The notes below the pieces were generated by a model. That model was given only the letters and a program-made list of their open reading frames with translations, was not told the DNA's origin and made no database searches. From contig CAIKLQ010000501.1 of NCBI GenBank assembly GCA_903828255.1, positions 1 through 64,000 on the forward strand: a DNA stretch of 64,000 nt, in the 5' to 3' direction. Source of the DNA: an uncultured Verrucomicrobiota bacterium (GTDB lineage Bacteria; Verrucomicrobiota; Verrucomicrobiia; Limisphaerales; JADLHS01). Positions 4,284 to 34,745 of the stretch are shown here, piece by piece (within the stretch, counting starts at the first letter, position 1; each line of letters begins with the position of its first letter). The position numbers and the translations under genes are program-made.

Positions 4284-5153
4284 ATGCAGGTGCTCGTCAA
4301 CGGCTTGATTTCCGGTGCGACCATCGCCCTTTTGGCGTTGGCGTTTGCCGTGGTTTACCTGCCAACCCGCGTGTTCCACCTCGCGCTCGCCGGCATCTAC
4401 AGCCTTGCACCATTCCTTGCGTTGAGCCTGTTCAGCGCCGGAGTGCCATGGCCGATTTGCGCGGTCTTAGCAGTTGCCGCTGGCGCGGCGATCTCCCTTG
4501 GATGCGAGTGGTTGAATCACGACCGCTTGGAGAGAAAAGGCGCAGGCCCCGGGCTGCATCTTGTCAGTTCACTCGGCATTTTCATCGTGATTGTCCAAGT
4601 GGTTTCGATGGTCTGGGGCAATGAGGTCCGCACCCTTCGACACGGGATTGACGCCGTGTTTTCAGCGGGTGGGGTTCAGTTGACGCGCGCCCAAATCATT
4701 GCCGGTGGAACCGCATCCGGTTTGTTGGTGCTGTTCTACCTTTGGTTGCGATTCAGCAACTTGGGGTTGCGGTTTCGCGCTTTGGCCGACAATCCGGTTC
4801 AACTCGCGTTGTTCGGTTACAATGTCCGACGATTGCGTTTCCTCGCTTTCTCGCTGGCCGGATTGTTTGCGGCTGTGGCATCGCTTGTTCTGGCGTTTGA
4901 TCTTGGATTCGATCCGCACGGCGGGCTTCAGGCCCTGTTGTTGGCAATTGTCGCGGTGATCATCGGTGGGCGGGATTCCTTTGTCGGGCCAGTGATTGCC
5001 GGCTTTTTGTTGGGCGTGATTCGCGCGGAAGTGGTCTGGTATGCGTCGGCGCGCTGGCAAGACGCCGTAACCTACTTGCTTCTCGTGCTCTTCCTGTTTC
5101 TCAGACCCCATGGTTTGCTTGGGAAAAAAGCGCGGCTGGAGGCGCAAGCATGA
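4284..5153 (+). CDS. livH: branched-chain amino acid-type ABC transporter permease (LivH-like)
   Basis: MQVLVNGLISGATIALLALAFAVVYLPTRVFHLA...; conserved RFRALADNPVQLALFGYNVRRLR and final LRPHGLLGK. Confidence 0.85.
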   Translation: MQVLVNGLISGATIALLALAFAVVYLPTRVFHLALAGIYSLAPFLALSLFSAGVPWPICAVLAVAAGAAISLGCEWLNHDRLERKGAGPGLHLVSSLGIFIVIVQVVSMVWGNEVRTLRHGIDAVFSAGGVQLTRAQIIAGGTASGLLVLFYLWLRFSNLGLRFRALADNPVQLALFGYNVRRLRFLAFSLAGLFAAVASLVLAFDLGFDPHGGLQALLLAIVAVIIGGRDSFVGPVIAGFLLGVIRAEVVWYASARWQDAVTYLLLVLFLFLRPHGLLGKKARLEAQA

Positions 5154-6049
5154 ACTACCTGCTTCACCTCCTTATTTACCTGAACATCTACGTCATGCTG
5201 GCGTTGAGCCTCAACCTTGTGGTTGGATATTGTGGACTGCTGACGCTCGCTCATGCCGGCTACTTCGCAATTGGTGCCTACACTTACGCTTTGGCCACTT
5301 TGAAACTCGGCATGGGATTCATCCCTGCCGGGCTATTGACAGTCGGTGTTGCAGCGATCTTGAGTCTGGCTGTTTCACTCCCATCCTGGCGATTCAAGGG
5401 AGATTTCTTCGTCATGATTTCATTGGCAGTCCAGACGCTTGTCTTCAGCCTGCTTCACAATTGGTTTAGTCCAAACGCGCAGCCGGGCACTTGGGCCAAT
5501 TTGACGAATGGACCATTCGGTTTGGCCGGCATCAGCAAGCCGGTTATCGGCAGTATCAAATTCGCTACCATTGGGAGCATTGCTGCGCTTTCGACGGTTC
5601 TGGCTCTTTCGGCTGGCATGGTGATCTGGCTTTTTGTTTCCTCGCCTTGGGGACGGCTTTTGAAGGCAATGCGGGATGATGAACTTGCGGCGCGGGGATT
5701 GGGAAAGAACACACGACTAGCCAAAGTGCAGGCGATGGCAATTGCATGCGCGTTTGCGGCACTTGCTGGCGCAATCTACTCCAGCTACGTGAGTTACATT
5801 GACCCAAGCAGCGCATCTCTTGACGAATCCATTCTCATGCTTTGCATGGTTTTGGTTGGTGGCGTCGGCAATTTTCGCGGGCCGATTGTCGGCGCATTTG
5901 TGCTTCTGGCGATCCCGGAATTGCTACGTTTTGCCCATTTGCCTGATGCGGTGGCAGCGAACATTCGGTTGTTGGCATACGGCGGGCTATTAGTGGCGAT
6001 GGCTCACTTCCGACCCAAAGGTTTGGCCGGAGAGTATCGCCTTGAATGA
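5150..6049 (+). CDS. livM: branched-chain amino acid-type ABC transporter permease (LivM-like)
   Basis: LALSLNLVVGYCGLLTLAHAGYFAIGAYTYA; RDDELAARGLGKNTRLAKVQA; FRPKGLAGEYRLE; 4-nt overlap with livH. Confidence 0.88.
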   Translation: MNYLLHLLIYLNIYVMLALSLNLVVGYCGLLTLAHAGYFAIGAYTYALATLKLGMGFIPAGLLTVGVAAILSLAVSLPSWRFKGDFFVMISLAVQTLVFSLLHNWFSPNAQPGTWANLTNGPFGLAGISKPVIGSIKFATIGSIAALSTVLALSAGMVIWLFVSSPWGRLLKAMRDDELAARGLGKNTRLAKVQAMAIACAFAALAGAIYSSYVSYIDPSSASLDESILMLCMVLVGGVGNFRGPIVGAFVLLAIPELLRFAHLPDAVAANIRLLAYGGLLVAMAHFRPKGLAGEYRLE

Positions 6050-7611
6050 CCGCAATCACGACAACCGAATCAGTCGCCCAAACGACGCCTTCCCGCGAGG
6101 AGCATCAGGATGTTCTCGCCAGCAGGAAGAACGTGTTGTGCATTCGCGATCTGCGGAAGGCATTCGGCGGACAGATCGTTTTGGACGGCGCTTCAGCCGA
6201 ACTGCGGGAGGGAGAGGTCGTGTTGTTGCGCGGCAACAACGGTTCCGGAAAGACCACGTTGCTCAACATCCTCTCGGGGAATCTCGAACCCGATGCCGGG
6301 TCAATCCATCTCCAAGTCAACGGCGCTTCTGAACATTTTCGATTTCCACGCAGGTGGTGGGAGAATGTGAACCCCTTCGACCACTTTACCCCTGAACGAG
6401 TGGCGCGAGAAGGCGTGGGAAGAACTTGGCAGGACGTGCGTCTGTTCAACACGCTTACCCTCGCGGATAACATCGCCGTTGCTTCCCCAGGTCAGGCGGG
6501 GGAAAGTCCGTTCAACGTCTTGCTGCGTTATGGCAGGGTTCGGCGGGAAGAAAAATCCAATCGGCAAACCACAACAAACCGGCTCAAGGCGCTTGGCCTC
6601 GGCGACCGTGCGGATTCATCGGCGGATCGAATTTCCTTGGGCCAGACTAAACGGGTCGCTATCGCCCGCGCCGTTCAAGCCGGCGCGCGAATCTTGTTCT
6701 TGGATGAACCTCTTGCGGGACTTGACGCTCAAGGCATTGATTCGGTGCTGGAAATCCTGCGTCAATTAGTGCGAGAGCATCGCGTCACTCTCGTAATTGT
6801 GGAACACGTCTTCAATATTCCACGAGTTCTCGATCTGGCCGATAGTGTTTGGACTCTCGAAAACGGAAAAATCACGGTTGAGTCCCCGCAATTTGTTCGC
6901 ACACAGCATTCTGATTCTCGCTCCACGGATGTAGTCGCCTGGATAGCGAAGTTGCTGGGGCCAGAAACTGGCATCACGCGGGAAGCGCTCCCCGGCGGGG
7001 CCGTCCTTTGGAAACTTCGGCGGGATAATGCGAATTGCGGCAATGCAGAGTCCCCGTTGTTTGAAATTCGCAACCTTGTTGTGAACCGGGGTAAGCGGCG
7101 AATCATCGGCAGAGATGAAACGCCGAATTCTGAGCGAGGGATTTCGTTTCAGATTGCGGAGGGAGAAACCGCAGTTCTCCAAGCTCCCAATGGTTGGGGA
7201 AAAACGACCTTGGCAGCCGCCATCGTCGGAATGATCCCCATAGCTGGCGGAGAACTGATTTTCAAGGGCGCACGCATTGAACGCCTACCCGTATGGGAGC
7301 GTAGCAATAGAGCAATTGGCCTCGTTCCGGCTCGCGATTGCCTGTTTCCGAGCTTGTCTGTAAGTGAATGTCAAAAACTTGCAGGGTGTGACGGTGGGCG
7401 ACTGAACGCCCGAATTGACCCTCATAGACCGGTAGGTTCACTGAGTGGCGGAGAACGTCAGCAGGCCGTTCTCGCAATGGCTCGGGCGACTGAATTTGGA
7501 ATTTACGACGAACCGTTGTCAGCGATAGATCAAGGTTTGGTCGAGCAAAGTTTTCGACGAGTTACCGAATTGGGGCACAAAGCAATCTTGATTCTTATTC
7601 CCCATGCGTAA
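6046..7611 (+). CDS. fused double-cassette ABC ATPase (LivG-LivF type)
   Basis: NBD1: RGNNGSGKTT, LFLDEPLAGLD; NBD2: APNGWGKTT, LSGGERQQ, YDEPLSAID. Confidence 0.88.
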   Translation: MTAITTTESVAQTTPSREEHQDVLASRKNVLCIRDLRKAFGGQIVLDGASAELREGEVVLLRGNNGSGKTTLLNILSGNLEPDAGSIHLQVNGASEHFRFPRRWWENVNPFDHFTPERVAREGVGRTWQDVRLFNTLTLADNIAVASPGQAGESPFNVLLRYGRVRREEKSNRQTTTNRLKALGLGDRADSSADRISLGQTKRVAIARAVQAGARILFLDEPLAGLDAQGIDSVLEILRQLVREHRVTLVIVEHVFNIPRVLDLADSVWTLENGKITVESPQFVRTQHSDSRSTDVVAWIAKLLGPETGITREALPGGAVLWKLRRDNANCGNAESPLFEIRNLVVNRGKRRIIGRDETPNSERGISFQIAEGETAVLQAPNGWGKTTLAAAIVGMIPIAGGELIFKGARIERLPVWERSNRAIGLVPARDCLFPSLSVSECQKLAGCDGGRLNARIDPHRPVGSLSGGERQQAVLAMARATEFGIYDEPLSAIDQGLVEQSFRRVTELGHKAILILIPHA

Positions 7612-8527
7612 TTTCATCGACAACGACTCTGGGAATGCCGTTGTGCTCAACGAGCCAGCATCGCCGCCATCGCGCCGCGCAAGCACTCGCACTCAGGCGG
7701 TGTTCCAGCGTATTGCTTTTCGCCCATTGACCTCGTTGCTACCATTTGAACCACGAATTGGGGAGCGCCCCAATAATCTGGAAATCCCCATTACGCGAGC
7801 GAGATCGTGTAAGAATTTCTTTATGCCTGAATACGAGAATTGCCGTAAGATTCCGCAACGCACAACGGAGTTGCTCGACTCCTTGGTGCGTGCAAGCGCA
7901 TCCGGCTCGAAAGCAGTTGAACTCAATCCATACTTTTCAACACCGATCGCGTGTCGCGCCGATGTGGCTCCCATTCTGCCTTCGTCGCGCTGTTTCATTG
8001 AGTTCATGTTAACTCAGAAATTGGACGGGCAGACGATTTTGGATTTTGGATCGGGCACTGGGATTCTTGCTGTGATGGCGCGAAAGCTGAGGGCAGGAGA
8101 CGTTGATGCCATAGACATCAATCCTGCTGCTGTTCTGGCTACCACTGACAATGCTCGGCGGTTTGGATTCGCAGAGGGGATCAACGTAAAACAGTCTGAT
8201 GGTTTTGCAGCAGTTAATGGCCGTTACGATTTAGTGTTGGCAAATCTGCCTATGGTTGATGCGGACTCCTACGCTGGCGTGCTGTTCGGCCTATTTGATC
8301 CACACTTCGATTTGCACAGGCATTTTTTTGCGAATCTTCACCGGCATTTGAAACCAGGTGGTAGCGCCATCATTTGTCATTCAGAATTCCAAGAAGATTG
8401 GCCTTTTACGCGCCTCGAATCGCTGGCGGGTGAAAATGGACTCACGGCAAAGCTCGTGTTCGAACAAACCGTCGAAAATGTTGAGTGGCAGTTATACCGA
8501 ATAACCCCGGCCGACCCGGCCAAATGA
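7604..8527 (+). CDS. class I SAM-dependent methyltransferase (PrmA/HemK-like)
   Basis: ILDFGSGTGILAVMARK (motif I), DAIDINPAA, YDLVLANLPMV (motif IV-like); start may be internal (e.g. 7823). Confidence 0.65.
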   Translation: MRNFIDNDSGNAVVLNEPASPPSRRASTRTQAVFQRIAFRPLTSLLPFEPRIGERPNNLEIPITRARSCKNFFMPEYENCRKIPQRTTELLDSLVRASASGSKAVELNPYFSTPIACRADVAPILPSSRCFIEFMLTQKLDGQTILDFGSGTGILAVMARKLRAGDVDAIDINPAAVLATTDNARRFGFAEGINVKQSDGFAAVNGRYDLVLANLPMVDADSYAGVLFGLFDPHFDLHRHFFANLHRHLKPGGSAIICHSEFQEDWPFTRLESLAGENGLTAKLVFEQTVENVEWQLYRITPADPAK

Positions 8528-8541
8528 AAGCGCAACAAATT

Positions 8542-9687
8542 ATGAAAAACAAACTCCTCCTCATTGCGGTTCTTGCAGTCGGCGTGGTTCTTGGCGGATG
8601 CGAGAAGCCCGCTACGGCGCCCAACGCCGGTGCAAAGGTCAGCACCATTGAATTTTCAGCGATTCTACCGTTGACCGGGCCATTGGCGCATTTGGGAGAA
8701 AATGAACGCATTGGCATAACTCTCGCGCTTGATGACATCAAGGAACGGGGAACCCCCCATCTTGCATTCCAGTTTGAGGATTCCCAGGGCAAGGGGCCGA
8801 CAACCGTGACCGTTGCCCGCAAGCAGTGGGACGTGGATGGACGGCGTTTCTTCGTTGTAGCGACAACAGGTCCCGCGTTGGCGGCATTGCCCATGTTCCG
8901 GGATGCGGCGGAAGACAAGGTGGTCATCAGCCAGACCATGTATCCCGATGTCACCAAAGGCTACCCCTTTGCGTTCCGACTGTTTGCATCTTCGAGACAG
9001 GAGGCACAATTGCTTGCGAACCATGCGGCAGAAAGCAGTTACAAGCGCGCAGCCATACTTCACATTCAGAACGAGTGGGGAACTGAAAGCTCTTCGATTT
9101 TCCGCTCCACTTTTGAAGGGCGAGGCGGCGAAGTGGTCGGGAAAGAGACCTATACGTTTGCGGACAAAGATTATCGGCCGGTATTGCGCAAGCTTTTGTC
9201 CAACAATCCTGACGTAATCTTGCTCTACGCCTACCCGGATAATTTTCCGGCAATTCTCAAGCAACTTGCCGAGATCCGGCAGGACATCGCGGTGCTGGCC
9301 AACGCTGATTTCGCACTGCCAGGCGTCGCCAAGGAAGTTCCCGCCGAGTTTCTTGCAAAGACGGTCTTCCCCGCCCCGCGCTACTTTTACGACTCCAAGA
9401 ATGAACGAATCGCCCGCTTCAACCAACAGGTTCAAAAGAAGGGCCACACTCCGAACTTTGACATCGCCACGTTCTATGACATGACGATGATCTTGCAGGA
9501 AGCCGCCAGCAAAGCGGAAGATGCGACGCCAGGCGCTTTTCGCGCGGCGCTGATGAAGGTGTTTCCCTACGACGGCGTGACCGGTCACATGGAGATTTCG
9601 GCGGATCGGGAACTGGCCGTTGACCTTGCGCTTTCTCGTTGGGTCAATGGTGAGATCCAGGTTATTCCCAAAGCGAAGGCCAATTGA
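8542..9687 (+). CDS. ABC transporter substrate-binding lipoprotein (LivK-like)
   Basis: Lipobox VVLGGC; EFSAILPLTGPLAHLGENERIGITLALDDIKERG (receptor-family ligand-binding fold). Confidence 0.85.
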   Translation: MKNKLLLIAVLAVGVVLGGCEKPATAPNAGAKVSTIEFSAILPLTGPLAHLGENERIGITLALDDIKERGTPHLAFQFEDSQGKGPTTVTVARKQWDVDGRRFFVVATTGPALAALPMFRDAAEDKVVISQTMYPDVTKGYPFAFRLFASSRQEAQLLANHAAESSYKRAAILHIQNEWGTESSSIFRSTFEGRGGEVVGKETYTFADKDYRPVLRKLLSNNPDVILLYAYPDNFPAILKQLAEIRQDIAVLANADFALPGVAKEVPAEFLAKTVFPAPRYFYDSKNERIARFNQQVQKKGHTPNFDIATFYDMTMILQEAASKAEDATPGAFRAALMKVFPYDGVTGHMEISADRELAVDLALSRWVNGEIQVIPKAKAN

Positions 9688-9728: not shown

Positions 9729-12700
9729 ATGGAAAGCACCTACGAAAACCTCTCCTTTTGGCAGACATACGCCGAGCTTTACTGGCCCGACTTGGACGTT
9801 TCGTCTTCCGTTCCCGAAGCGGAATCGCTCAGACAATTTTCGACTGGCATCGCACGGGCATTGAAGAAAAGCCAGACAGATAAGCCGCTCAAAATACTTC
9901 TCCTCGGTAGCGGTTTTGGCGGAGTCGAACTGCCGGTGCTCTATCACCTCAAGAAGGCACACAACCAGTCACTTTGCTGTGTTTTCATTGATCGGGCCAA
10001 GTCTCCGCTGCAGCTTGCCGGACACATTCTTAACAAAGGATTCGATGGCCTGCCACGCGATGCAAATCAGCTCGCGGGTAGGATTGGCGAATTTAAGAAG
10101 GCTGCTCCTGACGCACAGGATTTTATCAACGACGCATCAAACTGGAAGGATGTTCCTGATCCACATCAAGAGATCAAATGTTTGACGCCACCGGGAGGAG
10201 ATGCCTTCTATTTTTTCAGAGACGATTTGAACTGGGAGCCAAATACATTCCCTCAAACCCCGTCTGCTTGGCTAAAGCGGATGGATGATTGGTTTGACCA
10301 ACGTCAGCAATTCGATCTGATCTTCGCTGCTTTCTCCTTCTTCCATATTGATTGGTGGCGATGCGTCGCAATGGATGCCCTGTCTCGTCTCAATCCCAAC
10401 GGGCTGTTTCTCCATGCCAAGGTTGAAGGTGATGAGGGCCTATTTGAGGGGCGTATTGGGTGTTCTGGTTCAAAGAATAGCATTGCCAAAAGGGTATTTC
10501 TCGAAGGGTTCTTTTCCCATCCGGAAATCGTCGAAGAGTTTGCAAAATCACCGCGAGCCAACAGCGCGTCGCAACCTCTCGCGATTGAATCGCTCTTGGC
10601 GAAACTCCAAGATTTCGGATTGTGTGAGACTTCCGACATGGTCGGCTCTGCTGGATACACTGTGCGCCCTCACGTTGGTCTCCACACCTATCGGCGGCTA
10701 CTGCACACAAGGGGTTTCAGCACTTTCAGGAACATTGCCAAGCAACTCGACGAAGGGCAGCCCGGCAAATATGACGCAATCTGTGAGGAAGTGCTTTCAA
10801 AAGCAGAGGGAGAGTCGAAGTTGGACGTTCTTCAAATACATTTCCATTGGACAATCTGCCAACTTCAGCATCCAACGCTGCTGCAAGTCTTCCCGTTGAA
10901 GCATCGCTTCCTAAGAGCACCGAAGCCACAGTATGAGCAATCGCATGCTGGCGTGCTCCATGATTCTTACGTTACAGCTTACGAGCTTTCCAACCCGCTG
11001 CGTCTTCACAAGCGGATAGACGATGAGATCCGGCTCGCGAAGACGCTTGGGCGACGTCTTAACGTGCAAGGTCTCTTGCACGATCAGTGCCTCGCATTCG
11101 AGTTGGGTCTTTGGCCGAAACAGGGGCGAACATCTTGGAGCTATGCGGGTAACGCCCTGCGCCACGATGCCCAGATTGTTGGTAGAACATTGGAAGAAGT
11201 TGCGACGTATTTAGCGCTGTTGGATCGGCGTTCGGAAGTAATGCATCGCAATTTCAGCAACACCAAGGCTCTACTTGAAGCGATACTTCCAATCTTCAAT
11301 AAGGCGCCGGTGCTCATTTACGATCTGGAGCAGGCGGATTATTCCTTGCGCCATACCACGCGGTTGGACTATGAGGAATTCCGATTCAACATCCCTCGCT
11401 TGGGACTCGCTGAGCAACAAGCGTGGCGAATAGAGCTCGCTCACATTCGGTCTTGGCTTCAAACAACCGTCTTTGCCCAGGCCAAGGACGAGTCGAGTGC
11501 GGAACCCGACGATCCTCCAGATGTTCTCACCTCGTCCAGACTTGCAGGTGATGCGGCGAATACCTGCGCTGGCGGAGCGCTCAAACGGTTGTTTGGTTTG
11601 ATTGCAGATTCCCCAGAACGCTTGGAAAGCATCTGTTCACGACTGGCAGCATCGTTCTCCGCATCATCGGACTTACCAGAGCAAACCAAACGACAAATTG
11701 TAGATGCACTGACTCCACCGATGGCTTTTACCCTCCGATGCTTAAAGCTGATGAGCGAAGCCAAGCAGATTGTGTTTTATCCTGCTCGTTACGAACTGGA
11801 GCAAGGGGGATTCGGCAAGGACGTGATCATCTGCGTGTATTCCCGCTGTCTTTCGGAAAAGGAAGTCACGGCAGAATTTCACAAATTTGACCAGTTCTTT
11901 GATGAGATCAAAATGCATCGCTTGGAGTTGAGCAGCCGATCCGGAGGGGTTGAGGAAACCATCCAAGCGTTTAGTCATGAGATCGCCCATCAGACATCGC
12001 GGCTTTTCGGCACACGTTGGCAAGAACTAGGAAAGGTGTTTGATCTAAATAGGGATGAATCTACGGGTTCGCGGAAGGGAGTTAACGATTGGCCAAAAAG
12101 CGCGGGAAGTCTAACCGTAGCCCCCAAAGACGTAGCATGCGTCTCCAAGTGGTTGGTGTGCCCCACCCCCAATATTCTCCACTCTGCCAAGAGCTTGCTT
12201 TACTTGTGGAGCGGCTCCCCAAGCTGGGCTGCTGAATTGAATCTTAAAAAAGATGATGATGCGAAGACAATCGTGAAGAGAGTATGGGCTGTCGCCCTCG
12301 GAGCAGCGGTCGCCGTTGATATCAAGAATCGTCCAATGCCCAAGAGCGTCAAAGCCGCGCTCGATTATGATAATTTGCAGACCTGTAAACTGATTGGCGC
12401 TTGCAGTAAACCCACGGTTACAATCCGTGGCGAGCCAAGCTTCTCATGGAAAGTTGCCGACCAAACGACGGCGAATTCGGAATTATTGTCAAAAGCACAA
12501 TCCCTTTTTGTTCGTGCGTTTGTGGCAGCTTCCTTGAATACGATTGTTCACGCGGGCGCAATGCAATCCCCAGCGATAGAGGTCTGCGTTGTATGTTCAG
12601 AAACGGAGATGGTATATTCGCTCTCAAACTCATGCACTTCTGGCGATACCAAGAATTCACACGACGATGGAACGAAAGCCGTTCTATCGCTGTGTGTCCG

Positions 12701-12830
12701 GCAAATGGGGGGCGATGTTTCCAAAGTGAAGCATTTTTGCGATACGGATGGACGGTGGGTGACTGAGTTTTCCCTCCCGCGCATTGCTGTCTTGAGAGGG
12801 CAACCGGTCCAGTGGCTTTCGTCCCTTTGA
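9729..12830 (+). CDS. large multidomain protein: Rossmann/methyltransferase-like N-terminus and GHKL histidine-kinase-like C-terminus
   Basis: N-term ILLLGSGFGGVELP...FDLIFAAFSFFHIDWW; C-term IQAFSHEIAHQTSRLF (H-box-like), NTIVHAG (N-box-like), DGTKAVLSLCVRQMGGDV (G-box-like) before DGRWVTEFSLP. Confidence 0.55.
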   Translation: MESTYENLSFWQTYAELYWPDLDVSSSVPEAESLRQFSTGIARALKKSQTDKPLKILLLGSGFGGVELPVLYHLKKAHNQSLCCVFIDRAKSPLQLAGHILNKGFDGLPRDANQLAGRIGEFKKAAPDAQDFINDASNWKDVPDPHQEIKCLTPPGGDAFYFFRDDLNWEPNTFPQTPSAWLKRMDDWFDQRQQFDLIFAAFSFFHIDWWRCVAMDALSRLNPNGLFLHAKVEGDEGLFEGRIGCSGSKNSIAKRVFLEGFFSHPEIVEEFAKSPRANSASQPLAIESLLAKLQDFGLCETSDMVGSAGYTVRPHVGLHTYRRLLHTRGFSTFRNIAKQLDEGQPGKYDAICEEVLSKAEGESKLDVLQIHFHWTICQLQHPTLLQVFPLKHRFLRAPKPQYEQSHAGVLHDSYVTAYELSNPLRLHKRIDDEIRLAKTLGRRLNVQGLLHDQCLAFELGLWPKQGRTSWSYAGNALRHDAQIVGRTLEEVATYLALLDRRSEVMHRNFSNTKALLEAILPIFNKAPVLIYDLEQADYSLRHTTRLDYEEFRFNIPRLGLAEQQAWRIELAHIRSWLQTTVFAQAKDESSAEPDDPPDVLTSSRLAGDAANTCAGGALKRLFGLIADSPERLESICSRLAASFSASSDLPEQTKRQIVDALTPPMAFTLRCLKLMSEAKQIVFYPARYELEQGGFGKDVIICVYSRCLSEKEVTAEFHKFDQFFDEIKMHRLELSSRSGGVEETIQAFSHEIAHQTSRLFGTRWQELGKVFDLNRDESTGSRKGVNDWPKSAGSLTVAPKDVACVSKWLVCPTPNILHSAKSLLYLWSGSPSWAAELNLKKDDDAKTIVKRVWAVALGAAVAVDIKNRPMPKSVKAALDYDNLQTCKLIGACSKPTVTIRGEPSFSWKVADQTTANSELLSKAQSLFVRAFVAASLNTIVHAGAMQSPAIEVCVVCSETEMVYSLSNSCTSGDTKNSHDDGTKAVLSLCVRQMGGDVSKVKHFCDTDGRWVTEFSLPRIAVLRGQPVQWLSSL

Positions 12831-12839
12831 TGCAAGATT

Positions 12840-14159
12840 ATGAAAACATGGATAATTATTGAGGACGATTCGACGATTTTGGAGATGCTCATTCGACGGG
12901 TGCGCTTATCCACCACCCATTGTCCAACTGACGATTCTGTTGTGGCCCTTTTCGCCAACAGCGATCCAACGAGTGCGTCCCATTTTCAGGAAGAGGAACT
13001 CAGCACTTTCATGTCGCAACAGAACATCAGGTTCATCCCCTGTGAAACCAGCACGAAGATTGAGGATGAGTTGAAGCTGTTGCAGGACAAACCGGCACTA
13101 ATTCTGGCCGATATGAATCTTGAGGGTATCCACAAGCACAATCACTACAAGACTCCGGGCAATGCGTTGCGCAATCTACTTTCAGGATGGGTGCAGGGCG
13201 AAAAGGACTGCGTCTTTTGCCTCTATAGCAGCCACTCAGCAAAGGACGAGGTGGTTAAGATTGTCGGGGGGAAAAGTATTCGCGCTAAGGCAATTGGTTG
13301 GTTTGATGTCTCGGAAGACAACGCGAAGCAGGCCGATAGCCTTATCAATGAAGCCGGCAGGCACTGGCAAAGGTGTCACGAGAACCCTCTGAAAGGGGTG
13401 TGGGATGACATTCGCACGAAGGATTGGTTTGCAAACAAAGATGGTCCTGTTCCCCACGAATGGACCGACATCCAGTTGACTGAATATCGTTCCGCAATCG
13501 AATCTGTGTTCGGCTTGTCATTTCCCGACGAATGGTATGCGCACGCTCAACTTAATGGATTCCACGAATCGCTTAAGGCAATGTGCGGTGCGTATTTTTA
13601 TGGTCGCATACATACTCCAAGCACGGCAATACCTGCCCGATACACATTCCGTTTAGGTAGCATTGTGCTCATTGCCGCATTGGCACACGCAAATTGTAAA
13701 AGTAAGGAACACCAGCCGCAGGAAACGCCTTTCCGAAGCTTTACTTGGAACACGCTCTGCTCCAGTGCCAAATTCACCCTTTCAACATCCCCCGAGCGCG
13801 TTCGCCTACAAGGGCAAGCGATCTATGAATTCTTTATACAGATCTTCAAAGTGGACAAGCACAATGGTCAGTTAAGGGGCGTCGAACTTCTTCCGAACGG
13901 CAGAACTGTGAAGCTCGTGTTGTCCTGGGACACAAAGAACCTCCACACCGTGATTTATGAGGAATTGCAGACCAAGTCTGGAGAATTGCATCGCGATGGC
14001 CATCCGATCGAGCCAGGATCGTGGATTCATTACTGTGATGGAACCCCTGGGACGGCTCGCTCTGCGTATGCGAAAGCACATATTGCGATGGCCTTTGAGC
14101 CGGGAAAACTTTTCGGTTGCGCTGACAATGTTCTTATCTCATCCCTTTGCGAATTATGA
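12840..14159 (+). CDS. receiver-domain protein with uncharacterised C-terminal domain
   Basis: IIEDDS acidic pair, phospho-site strand ALILADMNLEG, then FCLYSSHS; C-term ~250 aa unassigned. Confidence 0.6.
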   Translation: MKTWIIIEDDSTILEMLIRRVRLSTTHCPTDDSVVALFANSDPTSASHFQEEELSTFMSQQNIRFIPCETSTKIEDELKLLQDKPALILADMNLEGIHKHNHYKTPGNALRNLLSGWVQGEKDCVFCLYSSHSAKDEVVKIVGGKSIRAKAIGWFDVSEDNAKQADSLINEAGRHWQRCHENPLKGVWDDIRTKDWFANKDGPVPHEWTDIQLTEYRSAIESVFGLSFPDEWYAHAQLNGFHESLKAMCGAYFYGRIHTPSTAIPARYTFRLGSIVLIAALAHANCKSKEHQPQETPFRSFTWNTLCSSAKFTLSTSPERVRLQGQAIYEFFIQIFKVDKHNGQLRGVELLPNGRTVKLVLSWDTKNLHTVIYEELQTKSGELHRDGHPIEPGSWIHYCDGTPGTARSAYAKAHIAMAFEPGKLFGCADNVLISSLCEL

Positions 14160-14920
14160 ATAAAATGGAAAATGCGATCGCCCTTGTGGTGCTGCTCGAC
14201 CCCGAGGACGATCGAGCAATAAGCTGGGCTCGCCTCTTAACAAACGTGTTTTCCGACGTCTTCGTGGTGCATGGAGTTAATTCGTGGGGCAGACTTGATG
14301 TTGTTCGAGATGAAATCAAAACACTGTTAAATAGCGAGCGACCGTCACCTTTAGAAGTGTCCGCGGTGTTTACTCACCGCAACGACGACAAGAAGGACGT
14401 CGCGAGAATCCTGGATACAATTCAAGGAGAGTATTACCGCTTTGTTTTTAGTGGACCGGGAGTTCCAGAGGGCGATTCAGCAGGCATACCAATTGTGCGG
14501 AATACCGATCCGTGGTCTCTTTCAGACCAAGATGCAAAGGAAATACATGAATTCGTTATCGGCATCCGCCAAGACCTGCCATCCTGTTGCAAGCGGGAAT
14601 CGTTTTCCTTTCTCGTCGCCCTCGCCATTTTGTGTCAAGGCTACCTAGCTGCAAGAGGTAGATTCGATCTTCTCGGCGTGAATGCCGAAAAGGCAGCCGA
14701 GTATCGGACTCCCCCTGCTGAAGCGGTTGCGAGAGTTCTCGACCGAAAGTGGTGGCTGGCCCCATTTCAAGGATTCGATCTCACAAGCGAAATCCGCAAG
14801 GAATGTAACGAGCAAAGCCTTCCTTCAGAAATCGCACGGCTTGTTGACAACTTTGGCAATGGTGATGACCAATGTGTTAGCGCAGCCTTGCGGAAAATTG
14901 ATGTGATTCTGAATCAATAG
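14147..14920 (+). CDS. uncharacterised protein, 257 aa (or 256 aa from an internal ATG)
   Basis: Overlaps the stop of the upstream gene; same operon; motif LCQGYLAARG resembles the next gene's N-terminal region (LGRGYLASKG). Confidence 0.7.
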   Translation: MRIMNKMENAIALVVLLDPEDDRAISWARLLTNVFSDVFVVHGVNSWGRLDVVRDEIKTLLNSERPSPLEVSAVFTHRNDDKKDVARILDTIQGEYYRFVFSGPGVPEGDSAGIPIVRNTDPWSLSDQDAKEIHEFVIGIRQDLPSCCKRESFSFLVALAILCQGYLAARGRFDLLGVNAEKAAEYRTPPAEAVARVLDRKWWLAPFQGFDLTSEIRKECNEQSLPSEIARLVDNFGNGDDQCVSAALRKIDVILNQ

Positions 14921-14928
14921 GCGACCGC

Positions 14929-17745
14929 ATGAATACCCCTGCCTCCAAAGCTTTGACTCAGGTGCTAGAGCTATTAAGCGCAGGTGTTGAAGCAACTTCC
15001 GCCTTCATCATTTCCGCAAGCGCTTCTTCACAACTACTGTGGAATCTCCCAAAGGCGGCAAATGCGCAGCGCATAATCGTCATTTGGGATGCCTCCTTAA
15101 ACTCGGCAAATGCCGCAACTACCAATCTCTCTGCGCATCTGAACCCTCTGACGGCGTCGCTCTGCGCACTAAAGGAACAAAGTGATTTAAGAATTGCAAT
15201 TCTCGACCCTAAGCCCAAGCAGCATCGAGTCGAGGGCGGGTTATATCGGACTGTGGAGTCCATCCGCCAAGACAGGATGCCGCAGCTCTATTTGGCTTCG
15301 TTGCTGGATTTCGGAGGCTATCTTCTAGATCAGTTTTGCGGGAACAATGAAAGAGTTTTAAGGAAGGCAGACGAAAAGCGGACGGAAATCCTCGAAGTGC
15401 TACAGTGTCAGATTAGAGATGCCCTGATACGAGAGAGTGGTGAAAACGACCGGCACGCAATTCAGAACATCATTGGTCCGATGGTGCTACTTGGACGCGG
15501 TTACCTCGCCAGCAAGGGCGTCGCAGAACACGCCTTGCTTCGGGTTTTTGAGGCGACTGGTTTGTTGCCAAAGGGGCTAGCTGACGGATCCCAATCAATC
15601 GGCAAAATTAATGAGGAATCGTGGGGTAAGCAACCGTTACGCCTTTTGCTGGTTGATGACCAAGCCGATTGCGGCTGGACAGATTGGGTGCGCGCGAATC
15701 TGCCGGCCTCCAATCCGGGCCTTGTCAGCTTGGAGTCGGTTGACGTGCTTGCTTCGCCAGATGCCCTGCTCGACCGTCTGCTGGTCGAATGGAGGCTAAT
15801 GGGTGACTCGAAGGACAGGAGACTTGCGCTTCAGTTGGCAGCCAGCGGCAAAGAAACATCGAGCCGCCAGCCTGTTCTTCTGCTGGATTTGCGTCTCCAC
15901 TCCATGCGGAGCGCGGAAAGCGAAGCCGACTTCATCAAGAAGCTTCTCCCGCTTTGCGAACGTTTCAAATCCGACGGAAAGGCAGCGCAATTCGCCTGGC
16001 CCGGCTTTTCAGCGCAGGAAATTCAGAGCGTTCAGCAGTGGTGTGAGCATCCCAAACGAGAAACGCCCGATCATTTGGTCGCGTTGAGCTTGCTTCCACG
16101 GCTGATTGCGCTGATGGACATGTCCCTGCCCATCATCATTTTCTCGTCCACCGGGCAGCGTTCGCTGATTGAGAAGTTCAAGCCTTACGGGAATATCATT
16201 ACGGACTTTGAGAAGCCGAGGTTTTTCGGACGCGACGCAAGGAACGTCATTGCTGAAACACATGCGAAGTTTGCAGCCAGCGTCGAACGGGCGGTTAAAT
16301 TGGCTGTTACACGACGTTTATCCCAGCAGATGACGCTCAATGTCGGCATGGCTGACGCGGCGCTGGTAGGCTGTGCATTAAAGAATGCGGGAAGCAATTC
16401 TGAATGGAGTGCCGTCTTGTATATTGACGAATCAGGTTCTGCGCGTGAATTGACGTTGGGAGGAATACTGCTGCTCCTCCCCCGGGGGATCAGTGAAAGT
16501 GAGGTTGACAAAGCGCTCCGAGCGACTCTTGAGCAGCCGAGCAGTCAGGGCGCTCCGGCTGTCGGCCCTTCTCGCTCCAAGGGATGGTGTCATAAGCCAG
16601 GCAACCTCGAATTGCTTCTTCAGCAGATAAAAAGGCGTTTTCCAACAGTCCACATTTGCTTCGTCAGCTTAAGTGCGGGAGCAGATCGAATCTTCGATGA
16701 TTTTGCGAAACACGATGAGCTTCATGATGAGCGGGTGGCGGACAATCTGTGGCGCGAGATTTTTCGCCGGTTGGTGGAACTGTCAGTCTATGCGATCCCA
16801 AGTTGTCTTGTCGAAAATGGCGCTTGCTTGAAATCCTTTTCCATTCGCGCTCCCACGCGGGTGTTGCCCGCTTCCAGCATTGGCAAAGATTCTTGGAAAC
16901 AGCGCGCGCTATTCAATCGGTGGGGAATTGATGTCACTTTGGTTGGACCAGACGCGAGTTTATGGGAGGCCGTTTCTGCAATCGAAGCATTGCCCCCTCC
17001 CAAGCAGTTCAAAGCCAGTCGTTGGAGTTGGCTGGTTAAGTTGCTTCACCAGCTCAAGCCGAGGAAGCAACCCGATTTGATGATTCGATATTTCAGCTTT
17101 GACAGTCCGCGCCCGGTGGTTGAGGAGGTCATGCGTCTGTATCGTAATATCGAGAGCCCCCCCTTGGCCGAGATTGTAAGGGGATTCTTGCTGAACTGCC
17201 ACGGACGGCCAGCCGCCGCACACATACCGATTCTACATTTTGCGGTTGATGGATTCTTGTATCAGCAGAATTTCAGGAACGTGAACCCTTTGATACGCGT
17301 CACTGGATACTATGGCAGAAACCTGGAATTGTTACTTGAATCCAATCGCTGCACGGCGAACGGGGATCGTATCGGCGCGATTCTGAGCGCATCGGCAGCG
17401 GAGTTTCACTCTGGCGATCAAATACAGGCGTTATTGTGGAAACGCATAGGGATGACGCTCAACGCGATTGATGGCCCAGACTTTTTGCGTTTCTCATACC
17501 TTGCGAACGCTGAAACGGCGATGAGTGATGACCAGGCGGTCTCGTGGCAAGGCAAAGTCATCAAAAAGGCGGGCTCGGTTGGCGGCGGGACATCTACGGG
17601 TTATTGGGGGGTAATCGAAGACCAGCGAGGAAAGCAGGTTTTCGCACCAACATGCCCTGCTGATGTTGGCGATGCTGTCACGTTCAGGCCGATGCGCGAC
17701 AAATGCCCCGGGGAGATAATCGCCGCCGACGTGAAGAAGATTTGA
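14929..17745 (+). CDS. receiver - DUF3800-like - cold-shock/OB-like multidomain protein
   Basis: Receiver: LRLLLVDDQAD, VLLLDLRL, PIIIFSS, DFEKP. DUF3800-like: AVLYIDESGS...PILHFAVDGFLY. C-term WQGKVIKKAG...GYWGVIEDQRGKQVFAP...GDAVTFRPM. Confidence 0.55.
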   Translation: MNTPASKALTQVLELLSAGVEATSAFIISASASSQLLWNLPKAANAQRIIVIWDASLNSANAATTNLSAHLNPLTASLCALKEQSDLRIAILDPKPKQHRVEGGLYRTVESIRQDRMPQLYLASLLDFGGYLLDQFCGNNERVLRKADEKRTEILEVLQCQIRDALIRESGENDRHAIQNIIGPMVLLGRGYLASKGVAEHALLRVFEATGLLPKGLADGSQSIGKINEESWGKQPLRLLLVDDQADCGWTDWVRANLPASNPGLVSLESVDVLASPDALLDRLLVEWRLMGDSKDRRLALQLAASGKETSSRQPVLLLDLRLHSMRSAESEADFIKKLLPLCERFKSDGKAAQFAWPGFSAQEIQSVQQWCEHPKRETPDHLVALSLLPRLIALMDMSLPIIIFSSTGQRSLIEKFKPYGNIITDFEKPRFFGRDARNVIAETHAKFAASVERAVKLAVTRRLSQQMTLNVGMADAALVGCALKNAGSNSEWSAVLYIDESGSARELTLGGILLLLPRGISESEVDKALRATLEQPSSQGAPAVGPSRSKGWCHKPGNLELLLQQIKRRFPTVHICFVSLSAGADRIFDDFAKHDELHDERVADNLWREIFRRLVELSVYAIPSCLVENGACLKSFSIRAPTRVLPASSIGKDSWKQRALFNRWGIDVTLVGPDASLWEAVSAIEALPPPKQFKASRWSWLVKLLHQLKPRKQPDLMIRYFSFDSPRPVVEEVMRLYRNIESPPLAEIVRGFLLNCHGRPAAAHIPILHFAVDGFLYQQNFRNVNPLIRVTGYYGRNLELLLESNRCTANGDRIGAILSASAAEFHSGDQIQALLWKRIGMTLNAIDGPDFLRFSYLANAETAMSDDQAVSWQGKVIKKAGSVGGGTSTGYWGVIEDQRGKQVFAPTCPADVGDAVTFRPMRDKCPGEIIAADVKKI

Positions 17746-17749
17746 TCCC

Positions 17750-18274
17750 ATGCTCAACGAATGGCAGGAACGACGCAGCGAGTTCAATCACGACTGGTTG
17801 AAGAACCAGTTCTTGAACCGCCTGAACGCTTTTCTTGAGCGGTTGCGAAGCGATAATCCCGACGCGGAAAAATTGTCAAGATTCGTCCGGGAGCATCTGC
17901 CGGAATGGAGTGCGCATGAATCGGAAGCGCGCTGGCTGATTGACTCTGTGGAGAGTGAACTGTCTCCCAAGCGTTTTTTTGACCAGCCGCCATTGAACCG
18001 TTGCGACTCCAAAACCAAGGAATGGTTGCCAACGGTTGTTCATGAACTTTGGTTGAATCGGTATCCGGTTCACGAGTTGCGCGAAAAGGCCGCCGGGAAC
18101 CTGGCACAAGTGAACGTGCAATATGCGAAGCTCTCGTCAGCCTTGAAAAATTCGACTTCGGTAAGGGGCGGCGGTTTGGTAGCATTGGAGCACGAGTTTT
18201 CCAAGTTGAGCCGCTTGTGCGTCGAACTGCATGACACATTCAGCGCGTTCGACGTGAAAATCAGAAGATTATGA
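17750..18274 (+). CDS. uncharacterised helical protein
   Basis: 174-aa ORF with 4-nt stop/start overlap with the next gene; no recognised family. Confidence 0.6.
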   Translation: MLNEWQERRSEFNHDWLKNQFLNRLNAFLERLRSDNPDAEKLSRFVREHLPEWSAHESEARWLIDSVESELSPKRFFDQPPLNRCDSKTKEWLPTVVHELWLNRYPVHELREKAAGNLAQVNVQYAKLSSALKNSTSVRGGGLVALEHEFSKLSRLCVELHDTFSAFDVKIRRL

Positions 18275-20079
18275 GTGCGTTGCCCAGAGTGCTGGTCATT
18301 GATGACGATCTTGGACGCCCCTTTAAGCGGTCAAACGGGGACGCTCCGGTATTGGAGAATCCAGATCGTGAGGCGTTTTGCATTCGCGCCGGCCTCCAGG
18401 ACGTGACGGGCGACATTCCAGCCGAGAAGATCAATGAACCCGTGGCCGAGGCGGTATTCCTTTCCGGTCTCCGGATTGATGACGGCAAAGCGGAACAAGC
18501 CGTGACGGAAACGCTGGCCGAAATTCGTCGTGGGTGGGAGAAATCGCCGCGATGGGCGCTGATACTACTCGACCTCCATTTCAAGACCGGCCCCCTCAAA
18601 TCGGGCGGTATTCCAGCCGGGCGTCCAGAGGACCGCGATCCGCAACGGTATTTTGGGCTGACGTTGCTTGAAGCCATTTCCAAGGAAGCACAGTTGCAAG
18701 GACTGCCGGTCGTAATTCTCTCCGCGATGGAGCGGGAACGAATTGAGGAGCGATTCTCCAAGGCTGCCAGTGACTTCGTAGATAAGAGCAAAATCAACCG
18801 GGACAAGCTAGGCGAACTGCTGCTTGAACACGGCCTTTTGGCTGATGATCGCATCATCGGCGTCTCTGTGCCGATGTTAACCTGTCTTCGCGATGCCAGA
18901 AGTCGGGCGCGACGTGGTAGCGACAACATCCTCCTCTTGGGAGAAAGCGGATCGGGCAAGGAATTGGTCGCGAATTACATCCACCGCCAATCACCAAACG
19001 CTTCCGGTCCATACATAACAGTCTTCGTTTCGGCGATACCCGACTCGTTGATTGAAGACGAGCTTTTCGGGCATGAGAAAGGGGCGTTTACGGACGGAAA
19101 GGCGGCGCGTTTCGGTGCCGCCAAGCTCGCAAACGGAGGAACCCTTTTCCTCGATGAATTTGCGGACATTTCGCCAGCGGTTCAAACGAAGTTATTGAGA
19201 CTTTTGGACAAGAACACTCGCGAGGTCAGAGCCATCGGGAGCGGCAAAGGGGAGAAGATCAAGTTGCAGGTTGTCATGGCCACCAACCGGATTGAATTGC
19301 TGAATGGCGATGATTTTCGAGCCGACCTTCTAGCGCGGGTTAAAGTAAACGAACCCATTTGCGTCCCCCCGCTGCGCGAGCGGAAGGAGGATATTCGCCC
19401 GCTGGCGCTACACTTCGTCCAAAAATTCGAGACGGAGTTTAAGGCGCAAAAACGCAAGATTTCAGATTCGGCCTGGTCTGCGCTTATGGACCACGATTGG
19501 CCAGACAATGTTCGCGGACTTGAGCGGGTCATTGAGCAGGCGGTTTACAAAGGAAAGGGACTCCGTGCCCTAATGCCAGAGCATTTGAGCATTACCCCGA
19601 GGGTTTCGCTCCCGGTCGTCTCGGGGCGGCGAAACAGAGCAACAAAGGAGGAGAATACGCCGCCATCCACGGGGGCCAGTCCGACCGCTGAGGCTCAGCA
19701 GAAGTCGCCGCCAAGACTGAAGGACGTAATCGCATTGCTTGAAGCGTGTGAGGTGGATGCAAACGGCACGGATGAATGGGCTGGCAAGTTGGATACATTG
19801 CAGGAGTCGTATGGCCTGTTGCTTGCCAAACTCGTGAAAGCGGCCCTGTTGAAGGAGCGCAATTTCAAAGGCGAAATCCAGCATACGCCGGCGATGAGAC
19901 TTCTCGCAGGGCGACGGTTGGCGGAAAAGGGTGAAGCATCCATTGCTTACAGCGCCATCAAGAGCCTGTTAAGTCATCACCCCCCCGCATTGGCAGAAAT
20001 ACTTTCGGACCCCATTTTGAAGCAGATTTACGAAACTGCGTGCGAAAAGCGGTCTGCCAAAAAGCCCAAGGTTTCGTGA
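18271..20079 (+). CDS. receiver + sigma-54 activator-type AAA+ protein
   Basis: VLVIDDDLG, LILLDLHF, VVILSA; AAA: GESGSGKELVA, EDELFGHEKGAFTDG, NGGTLFLDEF, HDWPDNVRGLERVI. No recognisable Fis-type HTH at the C-terminus. Confidence 0.8.
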   Translation: MSALPRVLVIDDDLGRPFKRSNGDAPVLENPDREAFCIRAGLQDVTGDIPAEKINEPVAEAVFLSGLRIDDGKAEQAVTETLAEIRRGWEKSPRWALILLDLHFKTGPLKSGGIPAGRPEDRDPQRYFGLTLLEAISKEAQLQGLPVVILSAMERERIEERFSKAASDFVDKSKINRDKLGELLLEHGLLADDRIIGVSVPMLTCLRDARSRARRGSDNILLLGESGSGKELVANYIHRQSPNASGPYITVFVSAIPDSLIEDELFGHEKGAFTDGKAARFGAAKLANGGTLFLDEFADISPAVQTKLLRLLDKNTREVRAIGSGKGEKIKLQVVMATNRIELLNGDDFRADLLARVKVNEPICVPPLRERKEDIRPLALHFVQKFETEFKAQKRKISDSAWSALMDHDWPDNVRGLERVIEQAVYKGKGLRALMPEHLSITPRVSLPVVSGRRNRATKEENTPPSTGASPTAEAQQKSPPRLKDVIALLEACEVDANGTDEWAGKLDTLQESYGLLLAKLVKAALLKERNFKGEIQHTPAMRLLAGRRLAEKGEASIAYSAIKSLLSHHPPALAEILSDPILKQIYETACEKRSAKKPKVS

Positions 20080-20100
20080 CTCCAGTTTCATATTGGCAGC

Positions 20101-22845
20101 GTGTCTGCCAACCGGGTTGAATGCATTTCCATGAAAGCGTGTCGCGTTGAGATTGCACGCGCTTCAACAAGCGCCGAAGAGCCAGAGTGCATTACTTTGG
20201 CGTTGCAGGCTTTTTTCGGTCTTTTCACTCATGACAGCAGGATCGGGGAGTTTCCGTCGAACCTCATCCAGAAGGATGCAGAGCAAAAGCGGCTGATAGT
20301 TGTTCCTTCCACGCATGAATCCACACTGAATGCAATGATGGAGGAATTGCTGGTCCGTGCCTATGGTGAGCCCCCAAAAGCCATGCAAATTGGGGCTGGG
20401 CACACCCGGTTGATCCTTGTCCGTCTTCATAATGCATCGCCTCGATTTGAAAACCTCGCCCAAATTTACAGGAAGATAGGAATCGCCGAAGTGGTGGAAT
20501 TGGAGCAATTGCCTCTCATCTTCAAATTGGTCCACCTTGCGGGCGACAGCCAGGGCGTGCCGGAAAGCAAAGACATTACCCGTCCCTCAGAACTCCAAGA
20601 GGTGATTGAGACATCTGCCTTTCCCTCTGGAGCCGCTGAGATTATGGAGAGTCTTTTTCGCGACCCAAGTCTTTTGCACTCGACTTCAAGATTCTTGAGG
20701 AAGTCGTCTGTAACTGATGGAGGTTCGCCACAACCGAAAGATGTTTGGCCTCATCAGGGGGAAGCGCCGGTGAGATTGCTCTTCGGTGCGTTTACGGCAG
20801 GTGATGTGGGAAAGAACGAGTTCCTCCAAGCATTGCAGACTATTCGAATGGGATTTGACGAGGCTAACAGTCAGAAATGGAAACTGCAGCTCGGTGAAGT
20901 TTCAGATTGGGCGGAAAATGTCCTCACGCGCAAAACGGCATACCAACAGAACCCGCACCAGCTTGATGCTCTATCGACCTATTTATCTGGCCGCCGCATT
21001 TTGCTTATCGAAGATCAACTTCTGGAGCAGCACTGGAACGTAGCACTGCCGGTGATCTTTGGACTGAAAGGAATCCTTCCGAGGAGAGGGAAACTCAACG
21101 GCCTTGGAGGACCGATACTTTATCACGCTGAGACAGTGGATGACGCTCTGAGACGCTATGGTGAGATGATTGGCTCCTTCGACATTATCCTGTTAGACTT
21201 GTTCTCAAGCGAAGCTCGTCTCACTCGGACACGGCAATTGAAAGGCGCATTACTATCCACCATTGGGGCATCTGTTAACCGACTGGTGACTGAGTTGGAG
21301 AAAGTGCGCGACAAAAGGGCGGTCTGTCCAAATCCTTTTCCGCAACTCGTTGCGTTTTCGTATGAGGGAGGAGGAACTACGGTAAGGACGATTCTTCAGG
21401 ACTTCGGAGCGGCCGACTATTTTATCAAGGGTGCAGAGGGGGAACCGCACAAGGCCGAGTTCTATTCATCCCTGCGCAATTGTGTGATAAACGCACTGAA
21501 GCGCATGTGCATCCACGTAACCGGGCACGCAAATGTTTGCCACAAGGATAGCCGATTCAATCTATGGTTGAGACAATTCAAACCGCAACATCGCCCGCTG
21601 GTGCTCAATCTCATGAAGCACTTTCGATATTACAGTGCGCAAAGCATCGTAAAGCTATTCAATCGTTATCTTCGTGCTGAGTATCCCATAGACACCCGAG
21701 GCAAAACCTTGAGGTTGACGATCGCAAATTTGGGAATAAAGCGGGTGTCTTCCCATAAAGTATGGATTTCCTATCTAGGTCGGTCCACCAAATCGGGGCC
21801 GGCTGCGTTGTCGCTGCTATCTAAGCTGGATTGGCTGAGACCCATGTCTGTCGAGGCGGCAAAACTGATAGAAGCCGTGAAAGCGTTACCCGGGTTGACC
21901 AAGGGAAAACAAATTGGCGATTATATGCCCCAATTCAAGAGCTACGAGGAATTGTGCACGGGCTTCTCTGGAAAACTACTCGGAGGCAAGGTGACGGAGT
22001 TGATTTTGGTAGATGATGTGATCGGATCTGGTGGCCAGATTGATTCCTACCTCCGAAAATGGCTCAATCGGGATTTGCTTAAAGCGCACTGGAGGGAATT
22101 CTTGATGCGATATCTGGCCCGCAACCCGAAAAAGAAGATGGACGCCACAACCAAAGCCAAACTGTGGGAGGCATTTCAAAAAGACTGGCAAAGAGTGATA
22201 GAAAAGTTGAAGGGAGTGGCGGGGGGCAAGCGCGTTCGGATTAGCGCTGTTTTTGCCGTTGGTCCCGAGAATGCCCAACTTCGACGACGGATTCGTGCAA
22301 CGATTAACAGGTCGACGGGTTCAATGACGGGTAGCATCTCGGTGCCCATGTGCCTCAATCTTGTTCGTTCGGTGGGGGACGGCAGGAAACTTGACGACTG
22401 TCATCCAACGGAATGGGATGTGTATCCCGGACACACAAAAATGCCCGGTGCTTGTGGGGGAGAGGTTGTGCTGAACATCCATGTTATCGAGGTCAGTGCA
22501 AACTATACCCAGGCATGTGGAAAGAGCGGTATTAGTAGCCCGACCATAAAAAGGATGTTGTGGGATTATGTTGGAATAACAAATCCAAGGGCGAAGGAAT
22601 TCCGCTGTAATTTTGAACCATTCGGATGGAAGGACGGAGGAGGGCTGATTGCGACCTATGCGAACACTCCGGGCAACACTTTGCCAATCGTATGGGGTGA
22701 CCAAGGAACTAGCCCTTGGATTCCCTTGTGGCCAAGGTTCTTTAATCCGTGGGATGATGGCGGAGCAGAATCTCTCAAGTGCTGCTGTGGCAGGCGAGGC
22801 CGGCAACGCATCTGCGAAAGTGCTGCTAAAAAGTCTGTGCAATGA
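20101..22845 (+). CDS. receiver + phosphoribosyltransferase-like protein
   Basis: RRILLIEDQLLEQ, DIILLDLFS, LVAFSYEGG, DYFIKG (receiver); HFRYYSAQSIVKLFNRYL then LILVDDVIGSGGQIDSYL (PRPP-loop-like). Confidence 0.6.
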   Translation: MSANRVECISMKACRVEIARASTSAEEPECITLALQAFFGLFTHDSRIGEFPSNLIQKDAEQKRLIVVPSTHESTLNAMMEELLVRAYGEPPKAMQIGAGHTRLILVRLHNASPRFENLAQIYRKIGIAEVVELEQLPLIFKLVHLAGDSQGVPESKDITRPSELQEVIETSAFPSGAAEIMESLFRDPSLLHSTSRFLRKSSVTDGGSPQPKDVWPHQGEAPVRLLFGAFTAGDVGKNEFLQALQTIRMGFDEANSQKWKLQLGEVSDWAENVLTRKTAYQQNPHQLDALSTYLSGRRILLIEDQLLEQHWNVALPVIFGLKGILPRRGKLNGLGGPILYHAETVDDALRRYGEMIGSFDIILLDLFSSEARLTRTRQLKGALLSTIGASVNRLVTELEKVRDKRAVCPNPFPQLVAFSYEGGGTTVRTILQDFGAADYFIKGAEGEPHKAEFYSSLRNCVINALKRMCIHVTGHANVCHKDSRFNLWLRQFKPQHRPLVLNLMKHFRYYSAQSIVKLFNRYLRAEYPIDTRGKTLRLTIANLGIKRVSSHKVWISYLGRSTKSGPAALSLLSKLDWLRPMSVEAAKLIEAVKALPGLTKGKQIGDYMPQFKSYEELCTGFSGKLLGGKVTELILVDDVIGSGGQIDSYLRKWLNRDLLKAHWREFLMRYLARNPKKKMDATTKAKLWEAFQKDWQRVIEKLKGVAGGKRVRISAVFAVGPENAQLRRRIRATINRSTGSMTGSISVPMCLNLVRSVGDGRKLDDCHPTEWDVYPGHTKMPGACGGEVVLNIHVIEVSANYTQACGKSGISSPTIKRMLWDYVGITNPRAKEFRCNFEPFGWKDGGGLIATYANTPGNTLPIVWGDQGTSPWIPLWPRFFNPWDDGGAESLKCCCGRRGRQRICESAAKKSVQ

Positions 22846-30827: not shown

Positions 30828-30872
30828 ATTCGTTGGTCTTGGTTGTCGCGTTTTGGTTTCTGATTTTAAGAA

Positions 30873-31118
30873 GCGCGTTCTGTTGCCAGGTCGCGTGCAC
30901 CCCGAGGCCGAGTCAGGCATGTCGAATGTCATTTAGGAGTCGCCCATAGTGATTTCCTTTCTGTTGGTTTTGTTGGTGGCTTGGGTCATCGAGTGGACAC
31001 TTAGCGAGAGTAATGCCAACCGGGAAAATTGCTCCAAGCAGAGCGCAGCGCGGCCTCTACGGTCTGGGGATCTACCTGCGCGGCTACGCCCGGTAGCAAT
31101 TGCGTAATCGCTGCTACC
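30873..31118. repeat. duplicated leader/intergenic repeat, copy A (upstream of the sigma-54 gene)
   Basis: Shares GCGCGTTCTGTTGCCAGGTCGCGTG.ACCCCGAGGCCGAGTCAGGC, GAGTGGACACTTAGCGAGAG.GATGCCAACC-like and CTACGCCCGGTAGCA blocks with 34400-34644. Confidence 0.85.
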
Positions 31119-34644: not shown

Positions 34645-34745
34645 ACCAAGCCCCATCAAGCAGACGAGAGTTGCTTCGCGCATGCCCAAGCCAAACCCAC
34701 GCGCCTTCAACAAGTGGCACAAGCGCCGCTTGAATTGATTCGTGC

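Follow-up and report, generated by a model that had tools for sequence, protein, structure and literature searches.

The 64,000-nt window analysed here (positions 1 to 64,000 of contig CAIKLQ010000501.1, assembly GCA_903828255.1) contains an array of twelve co-oriented genes that opens at approximately position 4284 and ends with seven tightly packed plus-strand open reading frames, P1 to P7, at 9729-22845 (Table 1). An initial annotation had described these seven frames as lying almost end to end on one strand, and all are found there, with junctions that range from 4-bp overlaps to a gap of 21 bp. Intergenic gaps of 9 bp (P1/P2), 8 bp (P3/P4), 4 bp (P4/P5) and 21 bp (P6/P7) separate most of the genes; P5 and P6 overlap by 4 bp, and P2 and P3 also overlap, with an ATG at 14156 that would give an ATGA overlap. 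The extent given in that annotation begins too late, since P1 is preceded by five additional genes, two of them for Liv-type permeases and one each for a fused double ATPase, a methyltransferase and a binding protein of the LivJ type; this ABC importer and methyltransferase, as well as the methyltransferase-like N-terminus of P1, had been overlooked. Short overlaps join these five genes in succession (permA/permB, permB/ATPase, ATPase/methyltransferase and methyltransferase/binding protein), and 41 bp separate the binding protein gene from P1. The G+C content of the cassette (0.50-0.55) is lower than that of most of the flanking DNA. Because the host genome, a metagenome-assembled genome (MAG), is split into 1053 contigs and has 6% contamination, the binning of the array contig is not certain.

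Table 1. Coordinates of the array genes, the kinase-like motifs of P1 and the divergent RpoN gene, in window positions
Feature	Position	Strand	Basis
permA, LivH-type permease	4284..5153	+	Pfam BPD_transp_2 1e-28; 55% identity to Nostoc cassette permease
permB, LivM-type permease	5150..6049	+	Pfam BPD_transp_2 4e-37; 67% identity to Nostoc cassette permease
Fused double ABC ATPase, LivG-LivF type	6046..7611	+	Pfam ABC_tran 4e-45; 46% identity to Nostoc fused ATPase
Stand-alone class I SAM methyltransferase	7604..8527	+	Pfam PrmA/MTS 6e-14
LivJ-type periplasmic binding protein	8485..9687	+	Pfam Peripla_BP_6 5e-38; 38% identity to Nostoc binding protein
P1, methyltransferase-like N-terminus, divergent histidine kinase-like C-terminus	9729..12830	+	Nostoc cassette relative
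P1 H-box-like motif QAFSHEIAHQ (FSHE)	11964..11993	+	motif
P1 N-box-like motif ASLNTIVHAG (NTIVHA)	12528..12557	+	motif
P2, receiver aa 5-160, C-terminal domain without assignment	12840..14159	+	motifs EDD, LILADMNL, CLYSS
P3, family common to all three cassettes, without known domain	14147..14920	+	probable start ATG 14156
P4, N-terminal region, receiver ~aa 235-445, DESG-motif (DUF3800-like) region, cold-shock-like C-terminus	14929..17745	+	
P5, small protein without known domain, P6 partner	17750..18274	+	37% identity to same-position G095 gene, E 8e-34
P6, receiver, sigma54-type AAA+ aa 197-430, C-terminus without assignment	18271..20079	+	Pfam Sigma54_activat 7e-43
P7, N-terminal region, receiver aa 300-475, PRTase-CE	20101..22845	+	Pfam PRTase-CE 4e-24
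Second, divergent RpoN (sigma-54)	29145..30932	-	Pfam Sigma54_DBD 6e-25, Sigma54_CBD 2e-22

A search for syntenic cassettes revealed two relatives of the array. The first is carried by plasmid AP018182 of Nostoc carneum NIES-2107, typed as conjugative, and comprises two permeases, a fused ATPase and a binding protein; after these come relatives of P1, P2 and P3, together with a receiver protein whose C-terminus has no assignment. Identities in the importer are given in Table 1; the P1 relative is 23% identical over 808 aa (E 6e-38). For permB, the 67% identity found on the Nostoc plasmid compares with 38% at most in any other plasmid match. Because the same four importer genes directly precede the P1, P2 and P3 relatives on that plasmid, we regard the importer as part of the system. 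The Nostoc relative also agrees with a permA start at 4284 (the frame itself opens at 4200), and the probable start of the binding protein, the ATG at 8524, overlaps the stop of the methyltransferase gene. An importer with 46% identity to permB in another genome, G003, is an ordinary importer, the cassette being absent there; scans of viral contigs with permB and P1 gave no match. No P6-type protein is present in the Nostoc cassette, which would be expected if sigma-54 is missing from cyanobacteria.

The second related cassette lies in an uncultured Verrucomicrobia MAG (Loclat bin; here G095). Its upstream genes encode a family 3 binding protein, a permease, a radical SAM/B12 protein, an ATPase, a methyltransferase to which the stand-alone methyltransferase of the array is weakly similar (shuffle p ~8e-4), and a 515-aa protein. 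These are followed by contiguous relatives of P3, P5 and P6 and by a 1449-aa protein that combines a receiver, an HD-CE domain and a nucleoside hydrolase. The G095 importer belongs to a family other than the Liv type, and both families are of the amino-acid type. The gene for the 1449-aa protein is overlapped by 4 bp by a gene (L008:4365-9722, minus strand) encoding a 1785-aa single-chain fusion of the beta and beta' subunits of RNA polymerase with the catalytic motif ADFDGD. A Tubulin_2-family protein of 1128 aa is encoded upstream of the G095 cassette (L009:12590-15976, minus strand). As read from gene order and similarity, the two relatives show joint inheritance of the importer with P1, P2 and P3, and likewise of P3 with P5 and P6, and they show that the receiver-coupled enzymes differ by carrier; thus, the sensing core is inherited jointly and the outputs are swapped. 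The membership of P4 and P7, which have no close relatives, rests on packing and on their receivers. That P4 and P7 lack syntenic relatives in the collections searched is what one would expect of unrelated genes that are merely adjacent, but the tight packing of 12 genes, the occurrence of four receivers within a single array and the conservation of neighbours in two further lineages make such a coincidence very improbable.

P1 has no membrane segment. Its N-terminus is methyltransferase-like, with a motif I (LGSGFGGVELP) at aa 59 and weak Pfam matches; a methyltransferase-like N-terminus is also present in the Nostoc relative. The C-terminus had been read as kinase-like, and an H-box-like motif followed by an N-box-like motif is present both there and in the 23%-identical relative; profile support is lacking, in that no HATPase or kinase profile matches this region. 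Among 271 open reading frames of the three loci, P1 and its Nostoc relative are alone in having the ordered pair, and the pattern, which was defined after the sequence had been read, is reached in 2 of 20000 shuffles of P1. The G1 and G2 boxes are degenerate, which counts against a kinase, as does the G095 cassette, where the 515-aa protein in the place of the kinase has no recognisable kinase domain. For the P1 C-terminus, the pLDDT of a single-sequence structure prediction (33) is too low for a fold to be read, and P1, P4 and P7 had no relevant match among the sequences of solved structures. With its G1 and G2 boxes degenerate and no profile recognising it, P1 is taken on its motifs as a probable and strongly divergent histidine kinase.

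The initial annotation had picked out by eye four receivers, and these go beyond chance: an ordered pattern of acidic pair, phospho-Asp strand, Ser/Thr strand and Lys strand matches P2, P4, P6 and P7 as well as the receivers of both related cassettes. Elsewhere among the 77 open reading frames of at least 250 aa in the three loci it has one chance match, in the methyltransferase region of P1. The pattern was written once the proteins had been read and is therefore supporting evidence rather than a blind test. The motif sets are complete in P4, P6 and P7 and nearly complete in P2, in which the Lys position is not clear. A profile derived from 30 receivers encoded in this genome matches P6 (2e-4) alone of the four, together with the P6 relative (5e-5) and the REC-HD protein (9e-10) of G095 and the Nostoc protein N_4 (2e-4); the receivers of P2, P4 and P7, which have insertions, were not detected by it. 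A single-sequence structure prediction of the P7 receiver (pLDDT 36) is likewise too low for a fold reading. The receivers might instead be kinase-independent switches that sense nucleotides or other ligands, as proposed in related conflict systems (PMC8195603), with P1 a methyltransferase bearing an ATPase-like tail. The degenerate G-boxes of P1, the P2 receiver without a clear Lys and the absence of a visible kinase in G095 are in keeping with this alternative. Against it, P1 and its Nostoc relative each have an H-box followed by an N-box, and all four receivers retain the acidic pair and phospho-Asp; we consider it improbable.

No Pfam, NCBIfam or PADLOC family matches P1, P2, P3, P4 or P5 above the curated cut-off. 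The C-terminus of P2 is weakly similar to the Nostoc gene at the same position (shuffle p ~0.003), and the position agrees. P3, whose wide sharing the earlier reading had missed, is the one non-enzyme family found in all three cassettes: P3 matches Nostoc N_3 at E 2e-4, N_3 matches the G095 relative at E 3e-8, and shuffle p values within the family are 5e-5, 9e-5 and 1e-9. A P3-like stretch in the N-terminus of P4 (GYLA motif) was not significant. The receiver motifs of P4 (VDD 239, LLLDLRL 316, FSST 401, FEKP 426) are followed by YIDESGS at 496 and GYWGVIED at 891; these last two lend motif-level support to the DUF3800-like and cold-shock modules claimed for this protein, for which Pfam gave no match, DUF3800 included. 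The assignments of a sigma54-type AAA+ module to P6 and of a PRTase-like module to P7 both hold, with Pfam matches in each case (Table 1). P6, which has a full-length relative of 36-40% identity in G095, carries GESGSGKE and GGTLFLDE; its loop at aa 271 reads GAFTDG instead of GAFTGA, and the G095 relative has lost this motif, both of which count against the mechanism proposed below. No known DNA-binding domain was detected in P6. P7 carries the PRPP-loop LVDDVIGSGGQ, its PRTase-CE match is above the Pfam cut-off, and it matches the PADLOC phosphoribosyltransferase of type III-A retrons (7e-19).

Carriers of these genes are few. P1 was found in its own genome only, among 146 relatives and 390 genomes of the phylum; full-length P6 is encoded by 2 of the 321 genomes searched within the order; and P3 had no other carrier in 380 genomes, a P3-like match in genome G270 having been set aside, as it has stops and lies within housekeeping genes. 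A peptide-pattern scan of 85,462 species genomes for P5 returned the G095 cassette only, in a search whose patterns distant relatives would escape. Plasmid searches with the Nostoc relatives of P1 and P3 gave self-matches only, and those with P4 and P7 gave no match. Loci with PRTase-CE and HD-CE elsewhere in the phylum have other contexts and, save for one short PRTase match, lack the cassette genes. This rare and patchy distribution points to the horizontal spread of a rare system.

By predicted gene content, the array sits in a defence island that has a divergent RpoN of its own. The gene for this second RpoN, a possible partner of P6, lies 6 kb beyond the end of the array, whereas the genome carries its ordinary rpoN on another contig. 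A sigma54 promoter scan of the window gave no excess over shuffles, which counts against the mechanism proposed below. A sigma54-like site with one mismatch, at 3852-3867, is not above chance. A defence cluster at 43934-57094 includes a DruE-like helicase, a DpdE/DrmD-like SNF2 protein and an Eco57I-type methylase. Beside it, at 57091-64000, HSP90-type ATPase proteins were recognised by eye (57091-59076; 62834 onward). A module with a TraG/HerA-like ATPase occupies 31600-38840, and its four genes have relatives of 31-49% identity adjacent to the cassette of G095; in 27 other relatives searched, the HerA-like gene is absent. Two further minus-strand genes encode a CDC48-like AAA+ protein that PADLOC IetA models match at 1.5e-31 (25650-27335) and, divergent from the array, a dual-specificity phosphatase-like protein with a sub-threshold Pfam match (3246-3836).

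Because PRTase-CE is present here, HD-CE in the G095 relative and defence genes nearby, the array is best read, at about even odds, as a mobile, Detocs-like conflict system that is gated by phosphorylation, takes its input from an importer and acts through several outputs. The earlier suggestion of a regulated conflict or stress system agrees with this setting. In such a system, P1 would be a soluble divergent histidine kinase that receives a small-molecule signal, or a report of one, from the importer and binding protein with the methyltransferase modules; on the trigger, it would phosphorylate the receivers. P6, together with P5, would then drive sigma54-dependent transcription, perhaps via the RpoN copy of the island; P7, a phosphoribosyltransferase, and P4, a possible nuclease, would be the damaging effectors; and P2, perhaps with P3, may tune or buffer the signal so that a response occurs only above a threshold. 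Alternatively, the genes could form a regulon for sensing nutrients or stress without a conflict role, in which the importer and P1 detect an amino acid or a compound like it and the cell's nucleotide, RNA and transcription physiology is adjusted through the receivers. Coupling of importers to kinases is an established theme (Pst-PhoR and Bce modules), both importer families are of the amino-acid type and P6 resembles a regulator; this alternative is nevertheless rather unlikely, given that PRTase-CE and HD-CE are conflict-associated families, that the cassette is extremely rare and carried on a plasmid, that the effectors are exchanged and that the setting is a defence island.

As a candidate conflict system, the array is to be compared with several described families. 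Detocs systems comprise three genes, encoding a kinase, a receiver and one receiver-effector, and have no importer. The array differs in composition, as had been claimed: it has twelve genes around a core of seven, its receivers number four, and it adds an importer and methyltransferases as well as an activator of the sigma54 type and a phosphoribosyltransferase. It shares the logic of kinase, receiver and receiver-effector with Detocs, a defensive two-component family whose effector is a nucleotide-directed enzyme and whose best-described member has an ATP-cleaving one (PMC11249213). A 2023 copy of PADLOC, which may not include Detocs models, gave no Detocs match for any protein. Since defence systems of the kinase-receiver-effector type are already known from Detocs, the array is a variant rather than the wholly undescribed system first proposed, set apart by its combination of parts. 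Burroughs and Aravind reportedly predicted threshold-activated immune systems of histidine kinases and receivers in 2020, and the "-CE" domain names presumably stem from the same line of work; like those systems, the array would gate diverse effectors by two-component signalling. What distinguishes the array from Detocs, and possibly from these predicted systems, is its importer, its larger set of receivers and its sigma54-type module, and no description of that combination was found in the literature searched. The output of P7 is like the type III-A retron effector, matching PADLOC PRTase_III-A models, but P7 has a receiver, and the array has no reverse transcriptase and the window no Rfam match. 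Finally, ABC transporter genes adjoin a probable kinase and a receiver, much as in systems of the Pst-PhoR and Bce type; unlike those, the putative kinase has no membrane segment and the outputs are enzymes, not one DNA-binding regulator.

A broader reading, which we put forward as doubtful, is that of a transmissible signalling platform in which several enzymatic effectors are set off, together with a private transcription machinery, by a methyltransferase-kinase and a dedicated importer of the amino-acid type, the private machinery being the second RpoN here and the single-chain RNA polymerase in the G095 relative. If the conflict interpretation is true, bacterial conflict systems can couple a transporter for uptake to two-component switching, so that one trigger releases several different effectors. 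Effectors would be swapped between lineages while the sensing core stays constant, and a small-molecule trigger would be indicated.
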